Origin: Acidovorax sp. Leaf160 | GTDB lineage: Bacteria; Pseudomonadota; Gammaproteobacteria; Burkholderiales; Burkholderiaceae_C | Length of the DNA: 64,000 nucleotides | Reading direction: 5' to 3' | Assembly (NCBI RefSeq): GCF_001424265.1 | Contig: NZ_LMOV01000023.1 | Coordinates: forward strand, 301,416 to 365,415 | Part shown: one piece after another, positions 32,196-60,827 of the stretch | Layout of the letters: each line of letters starts with the position of its first letter | Numbering within the stretch: position 1 is the first letter of the stretch | Notes under the pieces: model-generated | Seen by the model: only the letters and a program-made list of their open reading frames with translations | What the model was told of the DNA's origin: nothing | Database searches by the model: none | Position numbers and translations under genes: made by a program

Positions 32196-33806
32196 TCATG
32201 ACGCCGCCTCGACGGGTTCAAACGCTCGAAGGGGGTGGAAGCGCACCCATGCGCCCACCGGAATCTGTCCCGCGCGATCCAGGTGATGCGGGGCGACGCA
32301 GCCGATGACGGGGTAGCCGCCCGTCAGCGGGTGGTCGGCCAGGAACAGCACCGGCTGCCCGCTGGGGGGCACCTGGATGGCGCCGGTGGCGGTGCCCTCG
32401 CTGGGCAGTTCGCCCGCGACGGCACGGGCCAGCGGCGTCTCGCCCGCCAGGCGAATGCCGACGCGGTTGGACTGCGGCGTGACCTGCCAGCGCTGGCGGG
32501 CCAGCAGGTCCACGGCCTCGGGCGTGAACCAGTCGGTGCGGGGGCCGGGCACCACGTCCAGCACCACGTCGGCCTGCAGGGTGGGCAGGTCGCCGGGCTG
32601 CGATTCGGCCGGGCCGACGACGGCGCCGCGCGGCGCCGGGCGCACGGCCACCACGTCGCCGGGCGCGACCGCCGGCGGGCCGACGCGGGCCAGGGTGTCG
32701 GTGGCGCAGCTGCCCAGCACCGGCTGCACGGCAAAGCCGCCGCGCGCAGCGATGTAGCTGCGCGTGCCGGCCACCGGCTCGCCCAAGGCCAGCACGTCGC
32801 CGTCGGCCAGCGCGAGCGGCTGCCAGCGCGGCACCGGCCAGCTGCGGCCCGCTGCACTGGTCAGGGTGAGCGGGCCGTCCGCACCGGTCACGGCCACCAC
32901 CGTGTCGCCACGGCTTTGCAGGCGCAGGCCGCCGTTCACCGTCTCCAGGCAGGCGTCGCCCGCCGCATTGCCGGCCAGACGGTTGGCAGCGCGGCAGGCG
33001 GCCCGGTCCATGGCGCCGGAGGCCGACACGCCCTGCCCCGCCTGGCCCGGGCGGCCCAGGTCCTGGAACAGTGTCTGCAGGCCGGGCGACAACACCTGCA
33101 ACGCCGGGCCTTCCGGGTGGGGCCGGGCCATCGGCAAATTCAAGCCTTTTCTGCCTCCGGCGCTTGATCTGCCTGGGTCTATTGCTATGTTTTTAGTAGC
33201 AACATCGACGAAACGCACCCGAAAGCCCGGCTGCAGCAGCGCGGGCGGTTCGCGGTCGATGTCCCACATCGCCAACGGCGTGGTGCCGATGATCTGCCAG
33301 CCGCCGGGGCTGGCCTGCGGGTAGACGCCGCTGAAGGTGCCGGCCAGCGCCACCGAGCCTGCCGGGATGCGTGTGCGCGGCGTGGCGCGGCGGGGCACGT
33401 TCAGGCTGGGATGCCCCCCGACGAGGTAGCCGAAGCCGGGCGCGAAGCCGGTGAAGGCCACGGTGTAGTCGCTGCCCGTATGGCGGCGCACGACCTCTTC
33501 GGGCGTGATGCCCAGCAGCTGCGCCACCTCGGCCAGGTCCTCGCCGTCGTACTGCACGGGGATCTCGACCAGCGTGTCGCTGCGCTCGGCGGCCGCGCTC
33601 ACGTCGCGCTGCGCGATGGCCTCGACCAGCGTGGCGAAACGCTGCGCGCTCGGGCGGAACTGCACGAGCAGCGTGCGCGCGGCGGGCACCAGCTCCTCGA
33701 TGCCGGCGATGGGGTCGCGCCGCAGCGATGCCAGCAGCGCCAGCGTCTGGTCCAGGTCGTCCAGCTCGACGAGCAGGGCATTCAGGTTGACGGGGAGGAA
33801 GCGCAA
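32196..33806 (-). CDS. pxpBC: Fused 5-oxoprolinase subunits B and C (KipI-KipA)
   Basis: A 536-residue fusion. Residues 1-200 are the PxpB/KipI domain ([20 protein letters not shown], then [15 protein letters not shown]). From about 225 it is PxpC/KipA ([20 protein letters not shown], and [14 protein letters not shown] near the end). PxpABC opens 5-oxoproline to glutamate using ATP. A TTG at 33806 is the likely start: GGAG is seven bases upstream and the DUF1445 stop lies just before it. The linker at residues 202-223 is encoded by a dispersed intergenic repeat. Confidence 0.88.
33138..33203 (-). repeat. 65-bp hairpin-headed repeat, copy inside pxpBC
   Basis: On the minus strand it begins TTGCTACTAAAAACATAGCAA (a short hairpin head) and ends GGAGGCAGAAAAGGCTTGAA. 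The same head-spacer-tail order is seen at 38740, 52463 and 58134, all between genes. Here it is in frame and encodes the PxpB-PxpC linker. Confidence 0.6.
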
Positions 33807-33822
33807 TCGGGACTCCGTCAGA

Positions 33823-34632
33823 TCAAACGTGGTACGTGCTGTCGGGCACGTCGGTGATGAACATATGGCCCGGCGCATGCGTGACGGCGAAGGGCACGCT
33901 CGATGCCATCACCGCCGCCTGGGGCGTGACGCCGCAGGCCCAGAACACGGGCACCTCGCCGGGGCGGATCTCCACCGGGTCGCCGAAGTCGGGCCGCGCC
34001 AGGTCGGCGATGCCCAGCGCCGCCGGGTCGCCCACATGCACCGGCGCGCCGTGCACCGACGGAAAACGGCCCGAGATGGAAACCGCGTCGGCCACGCGGC
34101 CTGCCGGGATGGGGCGCATCGACACCACCAGCTCGCCGTGCAGGCGCCCGGCCGGGCGGCACTGGCGCTGCGTGCGGTACATGGGCACGTTGCAGCCCTG
34201 GGCGATGTGGCGCACCTCGATGCCGGCCTCCTGCAAGGGCGTTTCGAAGGTGAAGCTGCAGCCGATCAGGAAGGTGACCAAGTCCGGATGCCCGGCCCAG
34301 AGGGCGGTGGCGTCGGCCACTTCCTCGGCCAGCCGGCCGTTGCGCCAGACGCGGTAGAGCGGAATGTCGGTGCGCAGATCGGCCCCTTCGGCCAGCACGG
34401 TGGCGTGGTGGCCGGCCTCGATGACGTCGAGCACCGGGCAGGGCTTGGGATTGCGCTGGGCGTAGAGCAGGAAGTCCCAGGCCCATTCGCGCGGCAGGGC
34501 GATCATGTTGGCCTGCGTCATGCCCGGGGCGCGGCCGGCGGTGGGCTCCACCAGGCCGGCGCGATAACGGGCGCGGGCTGCGCGCGCGGCCTGGATGGCA
34601 GCCTTGCGGGCGGTTTCGAGGGGCGATGTCAT
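33823..34632 (-). CDS. DUF1445 putative hydro-lyase (YcsI family)
   Basis: A 269-residue DUF1445 protein, full length for the family. It has the conserved [20 protein letters not shown] and [15 protein letters not shown] with its Cys, and ends near [14 protein letters not shown]. The family is labelled a hydro-lyase, and the mammalian D-glutamate cyclase carries a related domain. A role in interconverting glutamate and 5-oxoproline is therefore plausible in this operon. The order pxpA-ycsI-kipI-kipA matches the Bacillus subtilis kip region. Confidence 0.88.
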
Positions 34633-34660: not shown

Positions 34661-35416
34661 TCAGGCAAAGGCGCGCAGCGTGACGCCTTCGCGCTCCAGC
34701 GCCTCGCGCACCGCACGCGCCATGGCCACGGCGCCGGGGCTGTCGCCGTGCACGCAGATGGAGTCGGCGCGCACGCGGGTGGTGCTGCCGTCGATGGCCT
34801 GCACCGTGCCTTCGCGCACCAGCTGCAGCATGCGGCGCGCGACCGCATCGGCGTCGTGCAGCACGGCGCCGGGCTCGCGCCGCGACACCAGCGTGCCCTG
34901 CGGCGTGTAGGCCCGGTCGGCGAAGGCTTCGGCCACCACGCGCAGGCCGGCCTCTTCGGCCCAGCCTTCCAGCGGCGAGCCGGCCAGCACCACCAGCGCC
35001 AGCGACGGGTCGATGGCGCGGATGGCGGCGATCACGTCGCGCGCCTGGCGCTGGTCGTGCGCGATGGTGTTGTAGAGCGCGCCGTGCGGCTTGACGTAGG
35101 TGACGCGCGTGCCCGCGGCCTTGGCCAGGCCCTGCAGCGCGCCGATCTGGTAGATGACGTCGGCCACCAGGTCGGCGCTCGCCACGTCCATGTTGCGGCG
35201 GCCGAAGCCGGCCAGGTCGGGGTAGGCGACGTGCGCGCCCACCGCCACGCCGCGCGCCTGGGCGGCGCGCAGCGTGGCCAGAATGCCCGCCGCATCGCCC
35301 GCATGGAAGCCGCAGGCCACGTTGGCGCTGGTGACGATGCCGAGCATGGCGGTGTCGTCACCCATGCTCCATGCGCCCAGGCTTTCGCCCAGGTCGCTGT
35401 TCAGATCGATATGCAT
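34661..35416 (-). CDS. pxpA: 5-oxoprolinase subunit A (LamB/YcsF family)
   Basis: A 251-residue PxpA with the full family signature. The start [20 protein letters not shown] is followed by [31 protein letters not shown] and VKPHGALYN. The C-terminal [15 protein letters not shown] completes the metal-binding set. PxpA, with PxpB and PxpC, hydrolyses 5-oxoproline, a damage product of glutamine and glutathione turnover. Confidence 0.95.
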
Positions 35417-37718: not shown

Positions 37719-38040
37719 GAACGCAGGGCCGCCGGGCTGCGGGAGGCCTCGCGGCGCCGCCCCTGCCTGGCCGCCGCCGCGCCGAAACTGCGCCGGCGGG
37801 CGTGCCGGGCGCGCCGCCCGGCGATACACTGCGGCAGGCTGCCCGCGACCGGGCGCCCGGCCCATGCCAGCCAGTGAGTCGAAGTCCGTTCGGGCTGAGC
37901 CTGTCGAAGCCAGGGTACGTAGCAGACGTGCCCTCCGACAGGCCCAGGATGGCCGGGTGAGCGCACTGGCGTTGGGCGCCCGGCGGCTTGTTCGCCGCCC
38001 TCCTTCCCTGGTTCCCCTGCCCCACCTACGCTGCGACCCC
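37719..38040. other. Intergenic region with REP-like hairpin
   Basis: No gene. It contains a -10-like TACACT (37825-37830) in front of the DUF3334 gene and the REP-like unit pair at 37886-37956. The 200-base leader left to the next gene is otherwise featureless and GC-rich. Confidence 0.5.
37886..37956 (+). repeat. REP-like palindromic unit, copy 2, with inverted partner
   Basis: CCGTTCGGGCTGAGC, then CTGTCGAAGCC, at 37886-37911 faces a diverged inverted copy at 37931-37956 (CCCTCCGACAGGCCCAGGAT). The two could fold into a large hairpin. The unit matches 93-118. Confidence 0.6.
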
Positions 38041-38739
38041 ATGCAATCCAACGAAGACACCGTCGTGTACGGCACCGAAGACATCCTGGTCAGCCTGTGC
38101 AACTCCGTCACGCGCGTGCTGAGCGTCGCCACGCAGAAGCCGTTCCATTATTCGGGCATGGTGCAGCGCATCAGCAAGACCTGCCTGAAGCCCGACATCG
38201 GCTGCTTCGTGCTGTTCGACGGCGGCTTCTCCGGCCTGGTCATCATCAACTTCTCGAAAGAGGCGGCGATGGAGATCTACCAGAGCTACCTGCTGAGCAT
38301 GGGCATGTCGCAGGCCGATCTGGCGGCGTCCTACACCTCGGACGAAGTCTCCAACGTGATGGGCGAGCTGATGAACCAGGTCGTGGGCGACTTCACCGGC
38401 AAGGTGCGCCGCGAGCTGCAGACCCACATCACCCAGAACCAGCCCAAGATGCTGGTGCTGAACCAGCAGGTGGTGCTGAGCGTGGACGCCAACCTCGACA
38501 AGCCGGAGGCACGCCGGGTGACCTTCTACACCGCCAGCAACCACATCTTCTATCTGGAACTGGCCATCGACCGAACCGAATTCGTGAAGGTCGTCGACTT
38601 CGAGCCGCAGGACACCCCCGACCCGGACGCGCTCATCGCCGCCCAGGGCCAGACCGCCGCCGCGCCGGGCGCCCGCCCGGCCGCAGCCCCGGGAGGAGAC
38701 AGCGACACCGACGCGCTGCTGCGTTCCCTGGGCATGTGA
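38041..38739 (+). CDS. DUF3334/CheX-like protein
   Basis: A 232-residue cytosolic protein with no signal or membrane segment. The middle part, DEVSNVMGELMNQVVGDF, has the E-x-x-N spacing of the CheX/CheC/FliM phosphatase family, which dephosphorylates CheY-type regulators. The last 35 residues are a Pro/Ala-rich tail ending DALLRSLGM. I recognise it as DUF3334. A function in chemotaxis or two-component signalling is inferred only; no chemotaxis genes are nearby. Confidence 0.75.
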   Translation: MQSNEDTVVYGTEDILVSLCNSVTRVLSVATQKPFHYSGMVQRISKTCLKPDIGCFVLFDGGFSGLVIINFSKEAAMEIYQSYLLSMGMSQADLAASYTSDEVSNVMGELMNQVVGDFTGKVRRELQTHITQNQPKMLVLNQQVVLSVDANLDKPEARRVTFYTASNHIFYLELAIDRTEFVKVVDFEPQDTPDPDALIAAQGQTAAAPGARPAAAPGGDSDTDALLRSLGM

Positions 38740-38806
38740 TTGCTATATTTTCTATAGCTACAAACCCAGCATCCACGGGCGCAATACCCTGATTTGACTC
38801 TTGAAA
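38740..38806 (+). repeat. 65-bp hairpin-headed repeat, copy after the DUF3334 gene
   Basis: Starts one base after the stop codon with TTGCTATATTTTCTATAGCTA (a strong hairpin head) and ends TTTGACTCTTGAAAGG. It follows the same plan as the copies at 33138, 52463 and 58134. Its position right behind a stop suggests it may act as an RNA 3' structure. Confidence 0.6.
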
Positions 38807-38989
38807 GGCGACCGGCCTCCAGCGCAGGAGCCGGTCGTCGCTCCCGCACTCCGGCCTGGGCGCGGGGCGCGGCCCTCGCCTCCCCCACCCAGCGGCAGGC
38901 GAGCCGCACACCAGCACCGGCCTCGCCCGGTCGCACTCCTGCGGCCCGCCTGACCGGGTAAACCCCAGCAAGCGAATCCGCTGGCGGCG

Positions 38990-55426: not shown

Positions 55427-58044
55427 CATCGCTGGGGCAGCGCCGAATCGCCCGCCACCCCCGCCGCCGTCCACAGCGCCGCCACGCCCTCGGGCGGCAG
55501 CGGCGCGCTGAAGTGCAAGCCCTGCACCTCGTCGCAGCGCTGCTGCAGCAGGCAGTCCAGCTGGCCCTGCGTCTCCACGCCCTCGGCCGTGACCGTGAGG
55601 CCCAGCGACCGGCCCAGCTGGCTCATGGCCTGCACAATGGCGCGGTCGCTGCCCTGGCTGGGCAGCTGGGCGACGAAGCTGCGGTCGATCTTGATGCCGT
55701 CCAGCGGGTACTGGCGCAGATAGGCCAGTGACGAGAAACCGGTGCCGAAGTCGTCGAGGCTGAGGCGCACGCCGAGCTGCTTGAGCGCCGTGAGCGTCTG
55801 CAGCACGCCCTGCTCGTGGTCCAGCAGCACGCGTTCGGTGATCTCCAGCTCCAGCCGGCCGGGGGCCAGGCCGCTGGCCTCCAGGGCCTGCGCCACCACC
55901 CGGGGCAGGGCCCGGTCGCCGGCACCCGGCCCGTCGCCACCCAGCTGGCCGGGCGACAGGTTCACCGACACGCTGACCGCCGCGGGCCAGCGGGCGGCCT
56001 CCTGGCAGGCGGTGTGCAGCACCCACTCGCCCAGCGGGCGGATGAGGCCGGTTTCCTCGGCCAGCGGAATGAATTCCTGCGGCAGCAGCAGACCGCGCTC
56101 GGGGTGCTGCCAGCGCACCAGCGCTTCCAGCCCGCGCAGGGCGCCGCCGGGCAAGGCATAGCGCGGCTGGTAGTGCAGGCGCAGCTGGCCATCCGCCAGC
56201 GCCGTGCGCAGCTCCCCCTCGATCTGCCGCCGCGCCAAGACGTGGGCATTCATGGCGTCGGTGTAGAGGCGCCAGGTGCTGCGGCCCGCCGCCTTGGCCT
56301 CGTACAAGGCAATGTCGCCGCGCCGCAGCAGCTCGTCGGGTGTGCGCGCATGCGCGGGCGCCAGGGACACGCCCACGCTGGTGCCGATGAAGACGACCTG
56401 GCCTTCCAGGCAGAAGGGCTCGCACAACGCCGCGATGACGCGGGCGCACAGCGCGTCGAGGTCGAGCGGCGCGGTGGCGGCGCCCGCCGCTTGCGGCAGC
56501 GCCAGGATGAATTCGTCTCCACCCACGCGCGCGGCCATGCCGCCCGGCCCGGCCAGCGCGGCCAGGCGCCGCGCGGCCTCTTGCAGCACCTGGTCGCCGA
56601 CGGCGTGGCCAAGCGCGTCGTTGACCGGCTTGAAGCGGTCGAGGTCGAGGCTGAGCAGTGCCAGCCCGGGCTGCGGCGCCCCGGCGGCCGGCGCCAAGTG
56701 CTGCGACAGGAACTGGTCCAGCTGGCGTCGGTTGGGCAGGCCGGTCAGCGCGTCGTGCAGCGACAGGTGGCGCACCTCGGCCTGCGCCTGCCATTCGTCG
56801 GTCAGGTCGGTCGCCGTGCCGCGATGGCCCCGGCCGCCCTCGATGGCCCGGGCGGTGATGCGGCAGATGCGCTGCTGGCCGGCGGGGCCGCGGGTCTCGC
56901 AGACCAGCGTGGCGGAGCCCTCCATGCCCGACAGCGCGTGCTGCAGCCAGGGCTGCAATGCGCCTTCGTGGGGCCGCAGCAGATCGGCCAGCGGCCGGCC
57001 GAGCCAGTCGCTGCGCCGCTGCCCGGTGACCTGCGCGAAGCGGTCGGACAGATAGGTGAGCCGACCCTGCGCATCCACCTCCCACAGCCAGTCGGAAGAC
57101 GTCTCCGCCATGTCGCGGAAGCGCCGCTCGCTGCCCTGCAGCTCCGCCTGGCTGGTGCGCAGCGCCTGCATCTGCGCTTCGATCTGCCGCCCCGTCGCCA
57201 GCACATGGCGCAGCAGCAGGTAGAGCACGCCAGCCAGCAGCAGCACGCTGGCCACGAACAGCGGCAGCGTCTGCCGCAGCAGGCCGCGGCCGGGCCGGGG
57301 CGGCTGCCAGTTCAGCTGCGTGGCGGACTCCAGCAGCGGCATGGACTCGTAGCCCGGCAGGGGCTGGCGCGATGCGGTGAGCGGCGGCAGGCCGTAGTTG
57401 GCGCTCAGCTGCGCCAGCCGGTCCGGCCGCAGCACGGTGACGAACATCATCACCGAGGGTGGCCCGGGCACGACCGCGATCGATGGGTCCCACCCGGGGG
57501 TGATGCTGGCGGCCGCGACGATGGCCGGCGCGCCCGCCACCTCCATCGCGCGCACCACGCTGCCGTCGGCCAGCGCCGGCGCGCGCGCCTGGGCGACCAG
57601 GCCGTCCACGTCGCCCTGCAGCCAGTCGGTCAGCGCCGACGCCGAGGGCTGGCCGTCGATGACGCCGTAGACGGTGCGGCCGGCGCCATCGACCACCCAG
57701 ACGCCGTTGTAGCCGTAAAGATCGAATGGAATGTCGCCCACGTTGCGCTGGTCGTCCGCCCAGGCCTTGTCCACCGTCAGGTGCAGATGGCGGTAGGCCT
57801 CGCCCCATTTGCTGTAGTTGATGATGTTGCGGCCGATCTCGCCGCGCTGCTGCTCCAGGCTGTGGGCGATGAAGGTCCGGGAGCGCTGCTGCACGTCGTC
57901 ATCCTGGCTCAGCGCGTTGGTCACCAGCAGGTAGACCCCCACGCCGATCAGCACCAGCAGGGCCCAGATGGCGGGGAAGAGCCGCAGCAGCAGAGGATGG
58001 TTGCGGCGCAGGGTGGACCAGCGCAGCGGCGGTATGTCGTTCAT
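55426..58044 (-). CDS. CHASE4-PAS-GGDEF-EAL protein, intact copy
   Basis: An 872-residue inner-membrane c-di-GMP enzyme. Two membrane helices (LFPAIWALLVLIGVGVYLL and one near residue 270) enclose a CHASE4-type periplasmic sensor (NIINYSKWGEAYRHL). A PAS domain follows (DMAETSSDWLWEVDAQGRL). The cyclase motif GGDEF is at about 507. The phosphodiesterase motifs are intact: EAL at about 640, VSVNLSPGQ, ITERVLL, LDDFGTGFSS, IKIDRSFV and AEGVET. Both activities are therefore possible. It is a tandem duplicate of 58212-60827. Confidence 0.92.
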   Translation of the reverse strand: MNDIPPLRWSTLRRNHPLLLRLFPAIWALLVLIGVGVYLLVTNALSQDDDVQQRSRTFIAHSLEQQRGEIGRNIINYSKWGEAYRHLHLTVDKAWADDQRNVGDIPFDLYGYNGVWVVDGAGRTVYGVIDGQPSASALTDWLQGDVDGLVAQARAPALADGSVVRAMEVAGAPAIVAAASITPGWDPSIAVVPGPPSVMMFVTVLRPDRLAQLSANYGLPPLTASRQPLPGYESMPLLESATQLNWQPPRPGRGLLRQTLPLFVASVLLLAGVLYLLLRHVLATGRQIEAQMQALRTSQAELQGSERRFRDMAETSSDWLWEVDAQGRLTYLSDRFAQVTGQRRSDWLGRPLADLLRPHEGALQPWLQHALSGMEGSATLVCETRGPAGQQRICRITARAIEGGRGHRGTATDLTDEWQAQAEVRHLSLHDALTGLPNRRQLDQFLSQHLAPAAGAPQPGLALLSLDLDRFKPVNDALGHAVGDQVLQEAARRLAALAGPGGMAARVGGDEFILALPQAAGAATAPLDLDALCARVIAALCEPFCLEGQVVFIGTSVGVSLAPAHARTPDELLRRGDIALYEAKAAGRSTWRLYTDAMNAHVLARRQIEGELRTALADGQLRLHYQPRYALPGGALRGLEALVRWQHPERGLLLPQEFIPLAEETGLIRPLGEWVLHTACQEAARWPAAVSVSVNLSPGQLGGDGPGAGDRALPRVVAQALEASGLAPGRLELEITERVLLDHEQGVLQTLTALKQLGVRLSLDDFGTGFSSLAYLRQYPLDGIKIDRSFVAQLPSQGSDRAIVQAMSQLGRSLGLTVTAEGVETQGQLDCLLQQRCDEVQGLHFSAPLPPEGVAALWTAAGVAGDSALPQR

Positions 58045-58133
58045 GGAAAAGCCGGCAGCGCCCGGCTTCCGAAGCGGCGGGACGGAGGCGGATTGTCCCA
58101 GAAGCCCTCGGCAGGAACGCCCCGGTGGGCATC

Positions 58134-58199
58134 CGCTATGTTTTTAATAGCAAACAACCCAATGATGAAGGGCGCCCGAGGCCGAAAACGTCTGAAACC
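58134..58199 (+). repeat. 65-bp hairpin-headed repeat, copy between the two GGDEF-EAL genes
   Basis: CCGCTATGTTTTTAATAGCA forms the head, and CGAGGCCGAAAACGTCTGAA is the tail. It sits in the 167-base gap between the tandem duplicates, 13 bases from the stop of the upstream copy. Confidence 0.6.
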
Positions 58200-58211
58200 A
58201 GCCTCCAGGCC

Positions 58212-60827
58212 TCAGTCCGAGCGCGGCGTGCCCGGCGCCGCCGTGCCGGCCCACAGTGGGGCCAGCTGGTCCGCCGGCAGCGCCGGGCGGAAGGGAAAGC
58301 CCTGCACTTCGTCCACGGGCTGGCGCTGCAGGCAGTCCCACTGCGCCTGGCTCTCCACCCCTTCGGCCCGCACTGGCAGGCCGAGCGAGCGGGCGAGCAG
58401 GCCCAGCGCCTGCAGGATGGCCTGGCCTTGCGGCCGTTCGGGAAGCCGGGTGACGAAGCCGGGGCCGATCTTCAAGCCGTCCAGCAGCGGGTCGCGCATG
58501 CAGGCCAGCGACGCAAAACCGGCGCCGAAGTCGCCCAGCGTCAGGCGCACCCCCAGCCGCTTGAGTTCGGTGAGCGTCTGCAGTGCCTCTGCACCGTGCG
58601 CCAGCAGAATGCATTCGTCGATCTCCAGCTCCAGCCGCGCGGCGGGCAGGCCGCTGCCCTCCAGTGCCCGCGCCACGACCGAGGGCAGGTCGTCGGTCGC
58701 CACGCCCGGCGCCGCATCGCCGAACTGACCGCCCGCGAGCTTCACCGACACCCGCAGGTCGGCGGGCCAGCCGGCGGCATCGCGACAGGCCGTGTCGATC
58801 ACCCATGCACCCAGCGCGCGGACCAGGCCGGTCTCGCGCGCCAACGGCATGAAGGCGCCGGGCAGCAGCAGGCCTTTTTCAGGGTGCTGCCAGCGCACCA
58901 GCGCCTGCAGGCCGCGCAGCGCCCCGCCCTCCACCGCATGGCAGGGCTGATAGTGCAGGCGCATCTGGCCGCGGCGCTGTGCCAGCCGCAGTTCACGCTC
59001 CATCTGCAGGCGTGCCGACACCTGCAGGTCAAGCGCCTGCGTGTAGCAGCGCCAGGTGTTGCGGCCGGCGGCCTTGGCGTCGTAGAGCGCGATGTCGCCC
59101 TGGCGCAGCAATTCGTCGGCAGTGCGGGCGTGCAGGGGCGCCAGGGCCACGCCGATGCTGGTGCCGGTCTGCACGGTGTGGTCGCCCAGCTGAAAGGGGC
59201 GCGCCAGCGCGGCCACCACCGCAGCGCAGCGGCGGTCCACCTCCTCGGGCGGCAGCGTGCCGGCGAGCACCAGGATGAATTCGTCGCCGCCGAGGCGCGC
59301 CGCGAGTTCGCGGGGCCCCACCAGCGCCTGCAGGCGCCGGGCGACCTCCTGCAGCACCTGGTCGCCCAGGGCGTGGCCCAGCGCGTCGTTGATCGGCTTG
59401 AAGCGGTCCAGGTCGAGGCAGAGCACCGTGACCGCCGGCTCGCCGCCGGCCGTGGGGTCCAGCCGGGCCGCGAGGAATTCGTGCAGCTGCCGCCGGTTGG
59501 CCAGGCCCGTGAGCGCGTCGTGCAGCGACAGGTGGCGCAGCCGCTCCTGCGCCTGCCATTCGTCGGTCAGGTCGGTCGCCGTGCCGCGAAAGCCCAAGCC
59601 GCCCTGGATGACGCGCGCGGTGATGCGGCACACGCGCCGCAGGCCGGCGTGGTCGTCGATGTGGCAGAGCAGCGTGCCGCGGCCCGCCCCGCCCTCGCCA
59701 CCGCCCGGCACCGCCCCGCCCAGCCAGGGCGCCAGCGGCTGGGCGTCCTCGCGCCGCAGCAGGTCGGCCAGCGGACGGCCGAGCCAGGCACTGCGATCCA
59801 GTCCGGTGACCTCCGAGAACCGGTCGGAAAGGTAGGTGATGCGCCCTTCGGCGTCGGCTTCCCACAGCCAGTCGGACGAGGTTTCGGCCATGTCCCGGAA
59901 GCGCTGCTCGCTGTTCTGCAGGTCGGACCGGCTGCCGTGCAGTGCGAGCAGCTGCGACTCGATCTGCCGGGCCGACACCAGCGCGTTGCGCAGCAGCAGG
60001 AAGAGCACCGCCAGCAGCAGCGCAACGCCGCTCGCGAACACCGGCAGCGTGGTGCGCAGCAGTGCACGGCCGGGCTCCGGCGGGTCCCAGTTCAGCAGCA
60101 GGGTTGGCGAATCGAGCAAGGGCATCGATTCGTATCCGGGCAGCGCCTGGCCTGAGGGCTGGAGCGCAGGCAGGCCGTACTGCTCGCTGAGCTGCGCGAA
60201 CCAGGCGGAATCGAGCAGGGTGACGAACATCATCACCGAGGCAGGCCCGGGCACCATCGACACCGTCTCGTCGCGCCCGGTGGTGATGGATGCCGCAGCC
60301 ACGATCGCGGGCACCCCGCCCACCTGGAGGATCCGCACCACGCTGCCGTCCTGCACCTCAGGCGCCCGTGCCGCGTCGAGCAGGCCGGCGACGTCGCCCT
60401 GCAGCCAGTCGGCAAGCTGCACGGCGCTGCGCTGGCCGTCGAGCACGCCATACACCGTGCGCCCGGCCGCATCGACCACCCACACCCCGTTGTAGCCGTA
60501 CAGCTTGAACGGCCCGACCCCGACGTTGTTGCGTTCATAGGCCCAGTGCGTGTCCACCGTGCGGTGCAGGTGCAAATAGGCCTCGCCCCACTTGCTGTAA
60601 TCGATGATGTTGCGCCCGGCCTCGTTGCGCTGCTGCTCCAGGCTGCGGGCGATGAACACCCGGGAGCGCTGCAGCACGTCGGCGTCCTGGCTGAGCGCGT
60701 TGACGATGAGCAGATAGGCGCCCAGCCCGATCACCACCAGCAGCACCAGGATGCAAGGAAACAGGCTGCGCCGCAGCAGGCTGCCGCGCCGGACCAGCGC
60801 CCGGGGTGGAAATGCGGGATCGTTCAT
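58212..60827 (-). CDS. CHASE4-PAS-GGDEF-EAL protein with degenerate EAL domain
   Basis: An 871-residue paralogue of the neighbour with the same domain order and colinear sequence (IIDYSKWGEAYLHL; DMAETSSDWLWEADAEGRI). The cyclase motif LGGDEF is intact. The EAL domain is damaged at metal ligands: EAL reads QAL at 641, VNLS reads VKLA, the first Asp of DDFGTG is Gly (LGDFGAGFAS), and IKIDRSF reads LKIGPGF. It should make but not break c-di-GMP, or use the EAL domain only for binding. The ATG at 60827 is chosen from alignment with the copy. Confidence 0.9.
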   Translation of the reverse strand: MNDPAFPPRALVRRGSLLRRSLFPCILVLLVVIGLGAYLLIVNALSQDADVLQRSRVFIARSLEQQRNEAGRNIIDYSKWGEAYLHLHRTVDTHWAYERNNVGVGPFKLYGYNGVWVVDAAGRTVYGVLDGQRSAVQLADWLQGDVAGLLDAARAPEVQDGSVVRILQVGGVPAIVAAASITTGRDETVSMVPGPASVMMFVTLLDSAWFAQLSEQYGLPALQPSGQALPGYESMPLLDSPTLLLNWDPPEPGRALLRTTLPVFASGVALLLAVLFLLLRNALVSARQIESQLLALHGSRSDLQNSEQRFRDMAETSSDWLWEADAEGRITYLSDRFSEVTGLDRSAWLGRPLADLLRREDAQPLAPWLGGAVPGGGEGGAGRGTLLCHIDDHAGLRRVCRITARVIQGGLGFRGTATDLTDEWQAQERLRHLSLHDALTGLANRRQLHEFLAARLDPTAGGEPAVTVLCLDLDRFKPINDALGHALGDQVLQEVARRLQALVGPRELAARLGGDEFILVLAGTLPPEEVDRRCAAVVAALARPFQLGDHTVQTGTSIGVALAPLHARTADELLRQGDIALYDAKAAGRNTWRCYTQALDLQVSARLQMERELRLAQRRGQMRLHYQPCHAVEGGALRGLQALVRWQHPEKGLLLPGAFMPLARETGLVRALGAWVIDTACRDAAGWPADLRVSVKLAGGQFGDAAPGVATDDLPSVVARALEGSGLPAARLELEIDECILLAHGAEALQTLTELKRLGVRLTLGDFGAGFASLACMRDPLLDGLKIGPGFVTRLPERPQGQAILQALGLLARSLGLPVRAEGVESQAQWDCLQRQPVDEVQGFPFRPALPADQLAPLWAGTAAPGTPRSD

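Follow-up and report, generated by a model that had tools for sequence, protein, structure and literature searches.

The linker between the two domains of the fused 5-oxoprolinase gene pxpBC is very probably encoded by an in-frame copy of a REP-like repeat of the Comamonadaceae, which was accepted into an older fusion as a tether; the intergenic copies of this repeat would be sites at gene 3' ends. The larger finding concerns the family: the repeat is family-wide, and its in-frame copies in conserved enzymes apparently follow the 'dialect' of their genome, that is, the spacer consensus which the repeat copies of each genome have in common. This tracking inside enzymes is the surprising part.

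The following features belong to the window, the whole 64,000-nucleotide stretch of DNA that was analysed:

32196..33878 (-): pxpBC, fused 5-oxoprolinase subunits PxpB (CT_C_D) and PxpC (CT_A_B); from the ORF, Pfam, NCBIfam and AlphaFold
33133..33203 (-): complete repeat copy, read in frame 0 and encoding most of the interdomain linker; from the covariance model (62.0 bits) and six-frame analysis
33184..33200 (-): repeat head GCTACTAAAAACATAGC, palindrome GCTAY-N7-RTAGC; from a sequence match
38739..38809 (+): intergenic repeat copy between convergent genes, at the very end of ORF 37864-38739; 50.3 bits
52461..52531 (+): intergenic repeat copy; covariance model, 43.7 bits
58132..58202 (+): intergenic repeat copy, a short way 3' of the gene that ends at 58212 (-); 55.9 bits

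The pxpBC reading frame encodes 560 amino acids, or 536 if the TTG at 33806 (the likely start) is used. Pfam places CT_C_D at residues 26-215 and CT_A_B at residues 283-549 of the 560-residue form, and pxpA adjoins the gene at 34661-35416; the two domains together with pxpA identify PxpB and PxpC. The protein reaches the NCBIfam models TIGR00724 and TIGR00370 and misses the PxpC equivalog cutoff (175 against the 500 bits needed). In the AlphaFold model (mean pLDDT 89, pTM 0.88) the first domain ends with a strand at 220-225 and the second opens with a strand at 259-265. Linker residues 231-250 have a pLDDT in the 50s in this otherwise confident model.

The repeat copy corresponds to residues 226-247 (202-223 in the 536-residue form) and contains no stop codon. 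The initial annotation had claimed that this part of pxpBC shares the plan of three intergenic repeats and lies in frame between the two domains. Both points hold: 33133-33203 (-) is a full copy of the family to which the three intergenic copies belong, and it is read in frame 0 and flanked by CT_C_D and CT_A_B. The covariance model was built from 26 aligned, oriented copies of the window's genome. Among the four full copies in the window the one in pxpBC scores best, though its 62.0 bits are partly obtained by construction because it was itself in the training set. pxpBC copies of other species, outside the training set, reach 42-58 bits. TTGCTACTAAAAACATAGCAA is found at 33182-33202 (-), where shuffled windows give 0 expected occurrences by chance. 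Given these scores across 71 nt and a head that is expected 0 times in the window, the match statistics exclude that a low-complexity linker merely resembles the repeat, even though the linker is Ala-rich and variable in every homologue.

Two side observations concern other parts of the window. A dispersed repeat of another kind, inverted and belonging to the TTTAGACAAGCTCAGCCCGAACGG type, is present at 78-118 and 37886-37926, and the region 55450-60395 contains a tandem pair of stretches, 71-82% identical and about 2780 nt apart, that look like paralogous genes.

Build and position of the repeat family

The element is about 70 bp long (71 nt, 34-63% GC, occurring as single copies) and consists of the palindromic head, a spacer, a GCGC core and a tail. 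The consensus head is GCTAT-N7-ATAGC, the base preceding TAGC being A in 92%. The spacer of 20 nt includes a GCGCTT/AAGCGC half-palindrome, and the tail after the GCGC core reads GGAGGCC..TTTGGCTTGAAA. Only the head palindrome is supported as structure, since covariation on 101 copies stays within the range of the shuffles. A search of Rfam over 33000-33350 gave no match up to E = 1.

The exact head and core pattern is found 308 times in the window's genome, against 2 times in the reversed control; for heads with at most 2 mismatches the whole genome yields 36 against 0. At least 20 exact copies of the head and core are seen in 22 of the 151 family genomes, with 0 or 1 in most others.

To describe genomic context, 161 copies were fetched with their flanks and classified from simple gene calls: 51 are convergent, 89 tandem, 6 divergent and about 15 intragenic. 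The median distance between a gene end and the adjoining copy is 10-26 nt past the stop codon. The family sits mostly a few tens of nucleotides after stops and is rare in divergent (promoter) regions. Because of this location 3' of genes the repeat is REP-like, and in the broad sense it qualifies as a REP: more than 100 copies, intergenic, 3' of genes and palindromic.

In-frame copies and the spacer dialect

About 15 of the 161 copies lie in frame inside conserved genes. Among those in the window's genome are thiL, dapE, srkA, aroE, glcE, acetoacetate-CoA ligase and a sugar ABC ATPase, as well as the N-terminal extension of era and the signal peptide of lolA. Homologues of thiL, dapE and srkA with solved structures have a shorter loop at the repeat site. 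Stop codons (TAG) in the head close one frame per direction (1% open), so frame 0 dominates among the coding copies; in the forward direction 53% of copies have frame 0 open, and it translates to a peptide rich in Ala, Ser and Gly. Two copies, in aroE (L007:1187-2593 (-)) and in a helicase gene (L012:2-3001 (+)), use frame 1, which would ordinarily run into the TAG of the head; they carry GCTACAAAAAACAGAGC, with TAG changed to GAG, and both translate to LLQKTEL.

Some further observations were made on coding copies. Read in frame, the repeat head gives hydrophobic peptides resembling A-M-F-L-I-A. In lolA (L021:903-1553 (-)) the repeat spans the signal-peptide region, and other copies lie at likely signal peptides (also L142, L013). 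The prmB-like gene beside dapE has an in-frame repeat too, both in the window's genome and in several other genera (L178:288-360, L272, L280, L283, L287).

Orthologues of dapE and thiL were drawn from 30 genera each. With kinship ignored, and with matches assigned by position because some in these loci fall in the neighbouring prmB, a repeat of at least 8 bits occupies the dapE site in 12 of 14 genomes that have 9 or more copies and in 0 of 16 that have no more than 1; the thiL site holds one in 12 of 13 repeat-carrying genomes against 2 weak matches in 16 repeat-poor ones. At both sites the repeat is present in many genera that carry the family, whereas genera lacking the family have an empty or decayed site. 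Where the repeat is present, the site is about 8 aa longer in dapE and 8-12 aa longer in thiL than where it is absent. As this gain, like that in pxpBC, is less than 22 residues, a simple insertion that kept all native codons is not established.

Coding copies appear to follow the dialect of their own genome. For dapE and thiL, the own-genome dialect ranked first of 7 genomes in 9 of 15 coding copies. When labels were shuffled within genes, 0 of 20000 permutations reached the observed value, and a column-shuffled control for composition only gave 2.5 +- 13.1 against the observed 86.5 (0 of 2000). The test used orthologous coding sites in small sets of equal size, among the matches listed, so that the result is strong but preliminary. 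As an example, the intergenic spacer of genome G040 is TAGCTGCTTGTGTAGGTTGAATATGCGC, and the thiL copy of the same genome has TAGCTACTTGTGTAGACATTACATACGC. Since they follow the dialect of their own genome, coding copies would be under the same homogenising force as intergenic copies, which may be selection exerted by a binding factor, conversion, or local insertion that recurs.

It is conceivable, though on balance doubtful, that the repeat is a selected DNA or RNA site for a co-evolving factor, and that the in-gene copies are such sites too rather than only a tolerated peptide. The permutation result for dapE and thiL copies of different genera argues for this, and copies with a common dialect but no more than 79% identity to one another fit selection better than recent copying. 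However, there is no known factor of this kind, the covariation signal is no stronger than in shuffles, and repeated local insertion or conversion could yield the same pattern. We would propose only tentatively a concerted evolution of the in-frame copies in dapE, thiL and pxpBC with the hundreds of intergenic copies in their own genome; the former would then be working DNA/RNA sites or conversion targets through which peptide sequence is imposed on essential proteins family-wide.

Mobility and comparison with known repeats

The initial annotation had suggested that the repeat is mobile or amplified. Mobility is not borne out: among 160 copies of the window's genome the closest pair is 79% identical (mean 55%), so that no pair points to recent amplification there, and no link to a transposase was found. 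In genome G016, two identical 41-nt repeat cores lie about 12 kb apart (C1:448289 and C1:460106), possibly a recent duplication; this genome has 20 Y1 transposase matches.

It seems improbable that the Y1 transposase of these genomes inserted the repeat as a RAYT-mobilised REP. PF01797 proteins are indeed encoded by the window's genome and by almost every repeat-rich genome, and the location at gene 3' ends is REP-like. Nonetheless, genomes free of the repeat often have PF01797 as well (113 of the 151 genomes overall carry it), and a clear repeat lies within 3.6 kb at 5 of 20 RAYT loci where about 4 are estimated by chance. The RAYT locus of the window's genome has no repeat, and the GTAG / CGTC tag is absent. 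Given that repeats near RAYT loci are at about background, RAYT mobilisation is unsupported.

Intragenic REPs of the GTAG/CGTC superfamilies are known from several genera (PMC3733652). Like our repeat they are short palindromes, mostly 3' of genes and some in frame in enzymes. The repeat differs from them in sequence and architecture; its consensus head has no GTAG/CGTC tetranucleotide tag at the palindrome end, and RAYT genes are not flanked by it above background at the 20 loci. Rickettsia palindromic elements (RPE) are about 150 bp long and lie in frame in unrelated conserved genes of an alphaproteobacterium (PMC10969869). Our repeat is likewise in frame inside unrelated conserved genes; unlike RPE, as far as their description goes, its gene sites are common to several genera and appear to follow the genome dialect. 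The Beta-proteobacterial repeat element (BRE) is about 90 bp long, has 69% GC and is partly tandem, with Acidovorax and Polaromonas included (PMC3110155). It resembles the repeat in being dispersed in Betaproteobacteria with some copies in coding sequences, but identity of the two is rejected by description, on GC content and length.

Closer to the repeat are the spaced motifs in Table 7 of PMC5217627, GCTTAT(N)5AAGCG for Acidovorax ebreus and ATAGCT(N)22CAAAAG for Polaromonas naphthalenivorans. The former was reported with 44 convergent, 59 co-oriented and 4 divergent occurrences and 5 in genes (PMC5217627), so that both copy number and gene-orientation statistics agree with ours, and all 9 of its 9 matches in the studied loci fall inside the repeat. 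The Polaromonas motif gave no match in the loci studied, and its link to the repeat is presumptive. These motifs are anonymous and statistical; the whole element, its family-wide distribution and its protein-coding copies were not analysed there. In the openly accessible literature we found no account of the repeat as an element, nor of linkers encoded by repeats. In-frame palindromic repeats as such are already known (RPE, intragenic REPs), and the present family is listed so far only as anonymous motifs.

Entry of the repeat into an existing PxpBC linker

According to the initial annotation the repeat had either created the fusion or been accepted into it, and only the second part stands. 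Homologues and the tree show PxpBC fusions without the repeat in Rhizobium/Rhizobiaceae, Xenorhabdus, Pseudomonas and Actinomycetota, and PDB 3oep (TTHA0988), presumably a Thermus protein judging from its locus name, is another fused homologue without it. Because repeat-free fusions occur in such distant groups, the fusion predates the arrival of the repeat. Only some of the related genera have a recognisable repeat in the linker. It is present in the pxpBC linker DNA of Acidovorax temperans, Paracidovorax wautersii, P. valerianellae and Acidovorax SUPP3334, and also in a Polaromonas and two MAGs, and is read forward in Acidovorax, Paracidovorax and Polaromonas; it has decayed in several relatives and is absent in similar fusions. 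In Acidovorax MR-S7 / Oryzisolibacter (L131/L054, L130), a separate lineage in the tree, this linker also contains the repeat, there in reverse orientation.

The linker is variable in all homologues, so that the conservation in distant repeat-free proteins which would speak against insertion is not seen. Linkers with the repeat have a median length of 33 aa against 31 aa without (p = 0.06); as they are only slightly longer, the repeat may have taken the place of some native linker sequence. These comparisons show that the repeat entered an already existing, length-tolerant linker.

Creation of the fusion, by insertion of the repeat between separate pxpB and pxpC genes, is in our view very improbable. 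The repeat does sit exactly between the domains, and the comparison of relatives proposed earlier found separate pxpB/pxpC pairs in the family. Still, for the family as a whole this origin is refuted by the repeat-free fusions outside Comamonadaceae (Rhizobiaceae, Enterobacterales, Pseudomonas, Actinomycetota, Thermus). Moreover, several of the separate pairs already overlap or abut, so that no repeat is needed for joining the two genes.

A plasmid search gave one match only, another fused pxpBC-type gene. In Comamonas, the pxpBC linkers (L088, L089, L093, L100, L117) resemble the repeat head at their start and finish with GCGCAAGCAGCTA; this looks like a second, inverted element or a repeat specific to Comamonas. 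Two pxpBC stretches with identical linkers lie on two contigs of Acidovorax temperans DSM 7270 (L071, L072).

With acceptance into the pre-existing, length-tolerant linker as the preferred reading, most insertions in genes would have been lost, and the survivors would be those in loops, linkers or termini with an open frame. The PxpBC copy would act as a flexible tether with no catalytic role, and the intergenic copies may be 3'-end DNA or RNA sites for a putative factor. Against this reading stand the gains of less than 22 residues at the occupied sites of dapE, thiL and pxpBC, the lack of near-identical copies as a sign of recent movement in the window's genome, and a putative 3'-end role that covariation does not support.

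Apparently, then, a non-coding repeat supplies the tether of a fused enzyme as well as loops in enzymes of lysine and thiamine biosynthesis, and the same repeat-bearing loops recur in many genera. If coding copies do track the dialect, some essential proteins would owe part of their sequence to the repeat family rather than to protein function.
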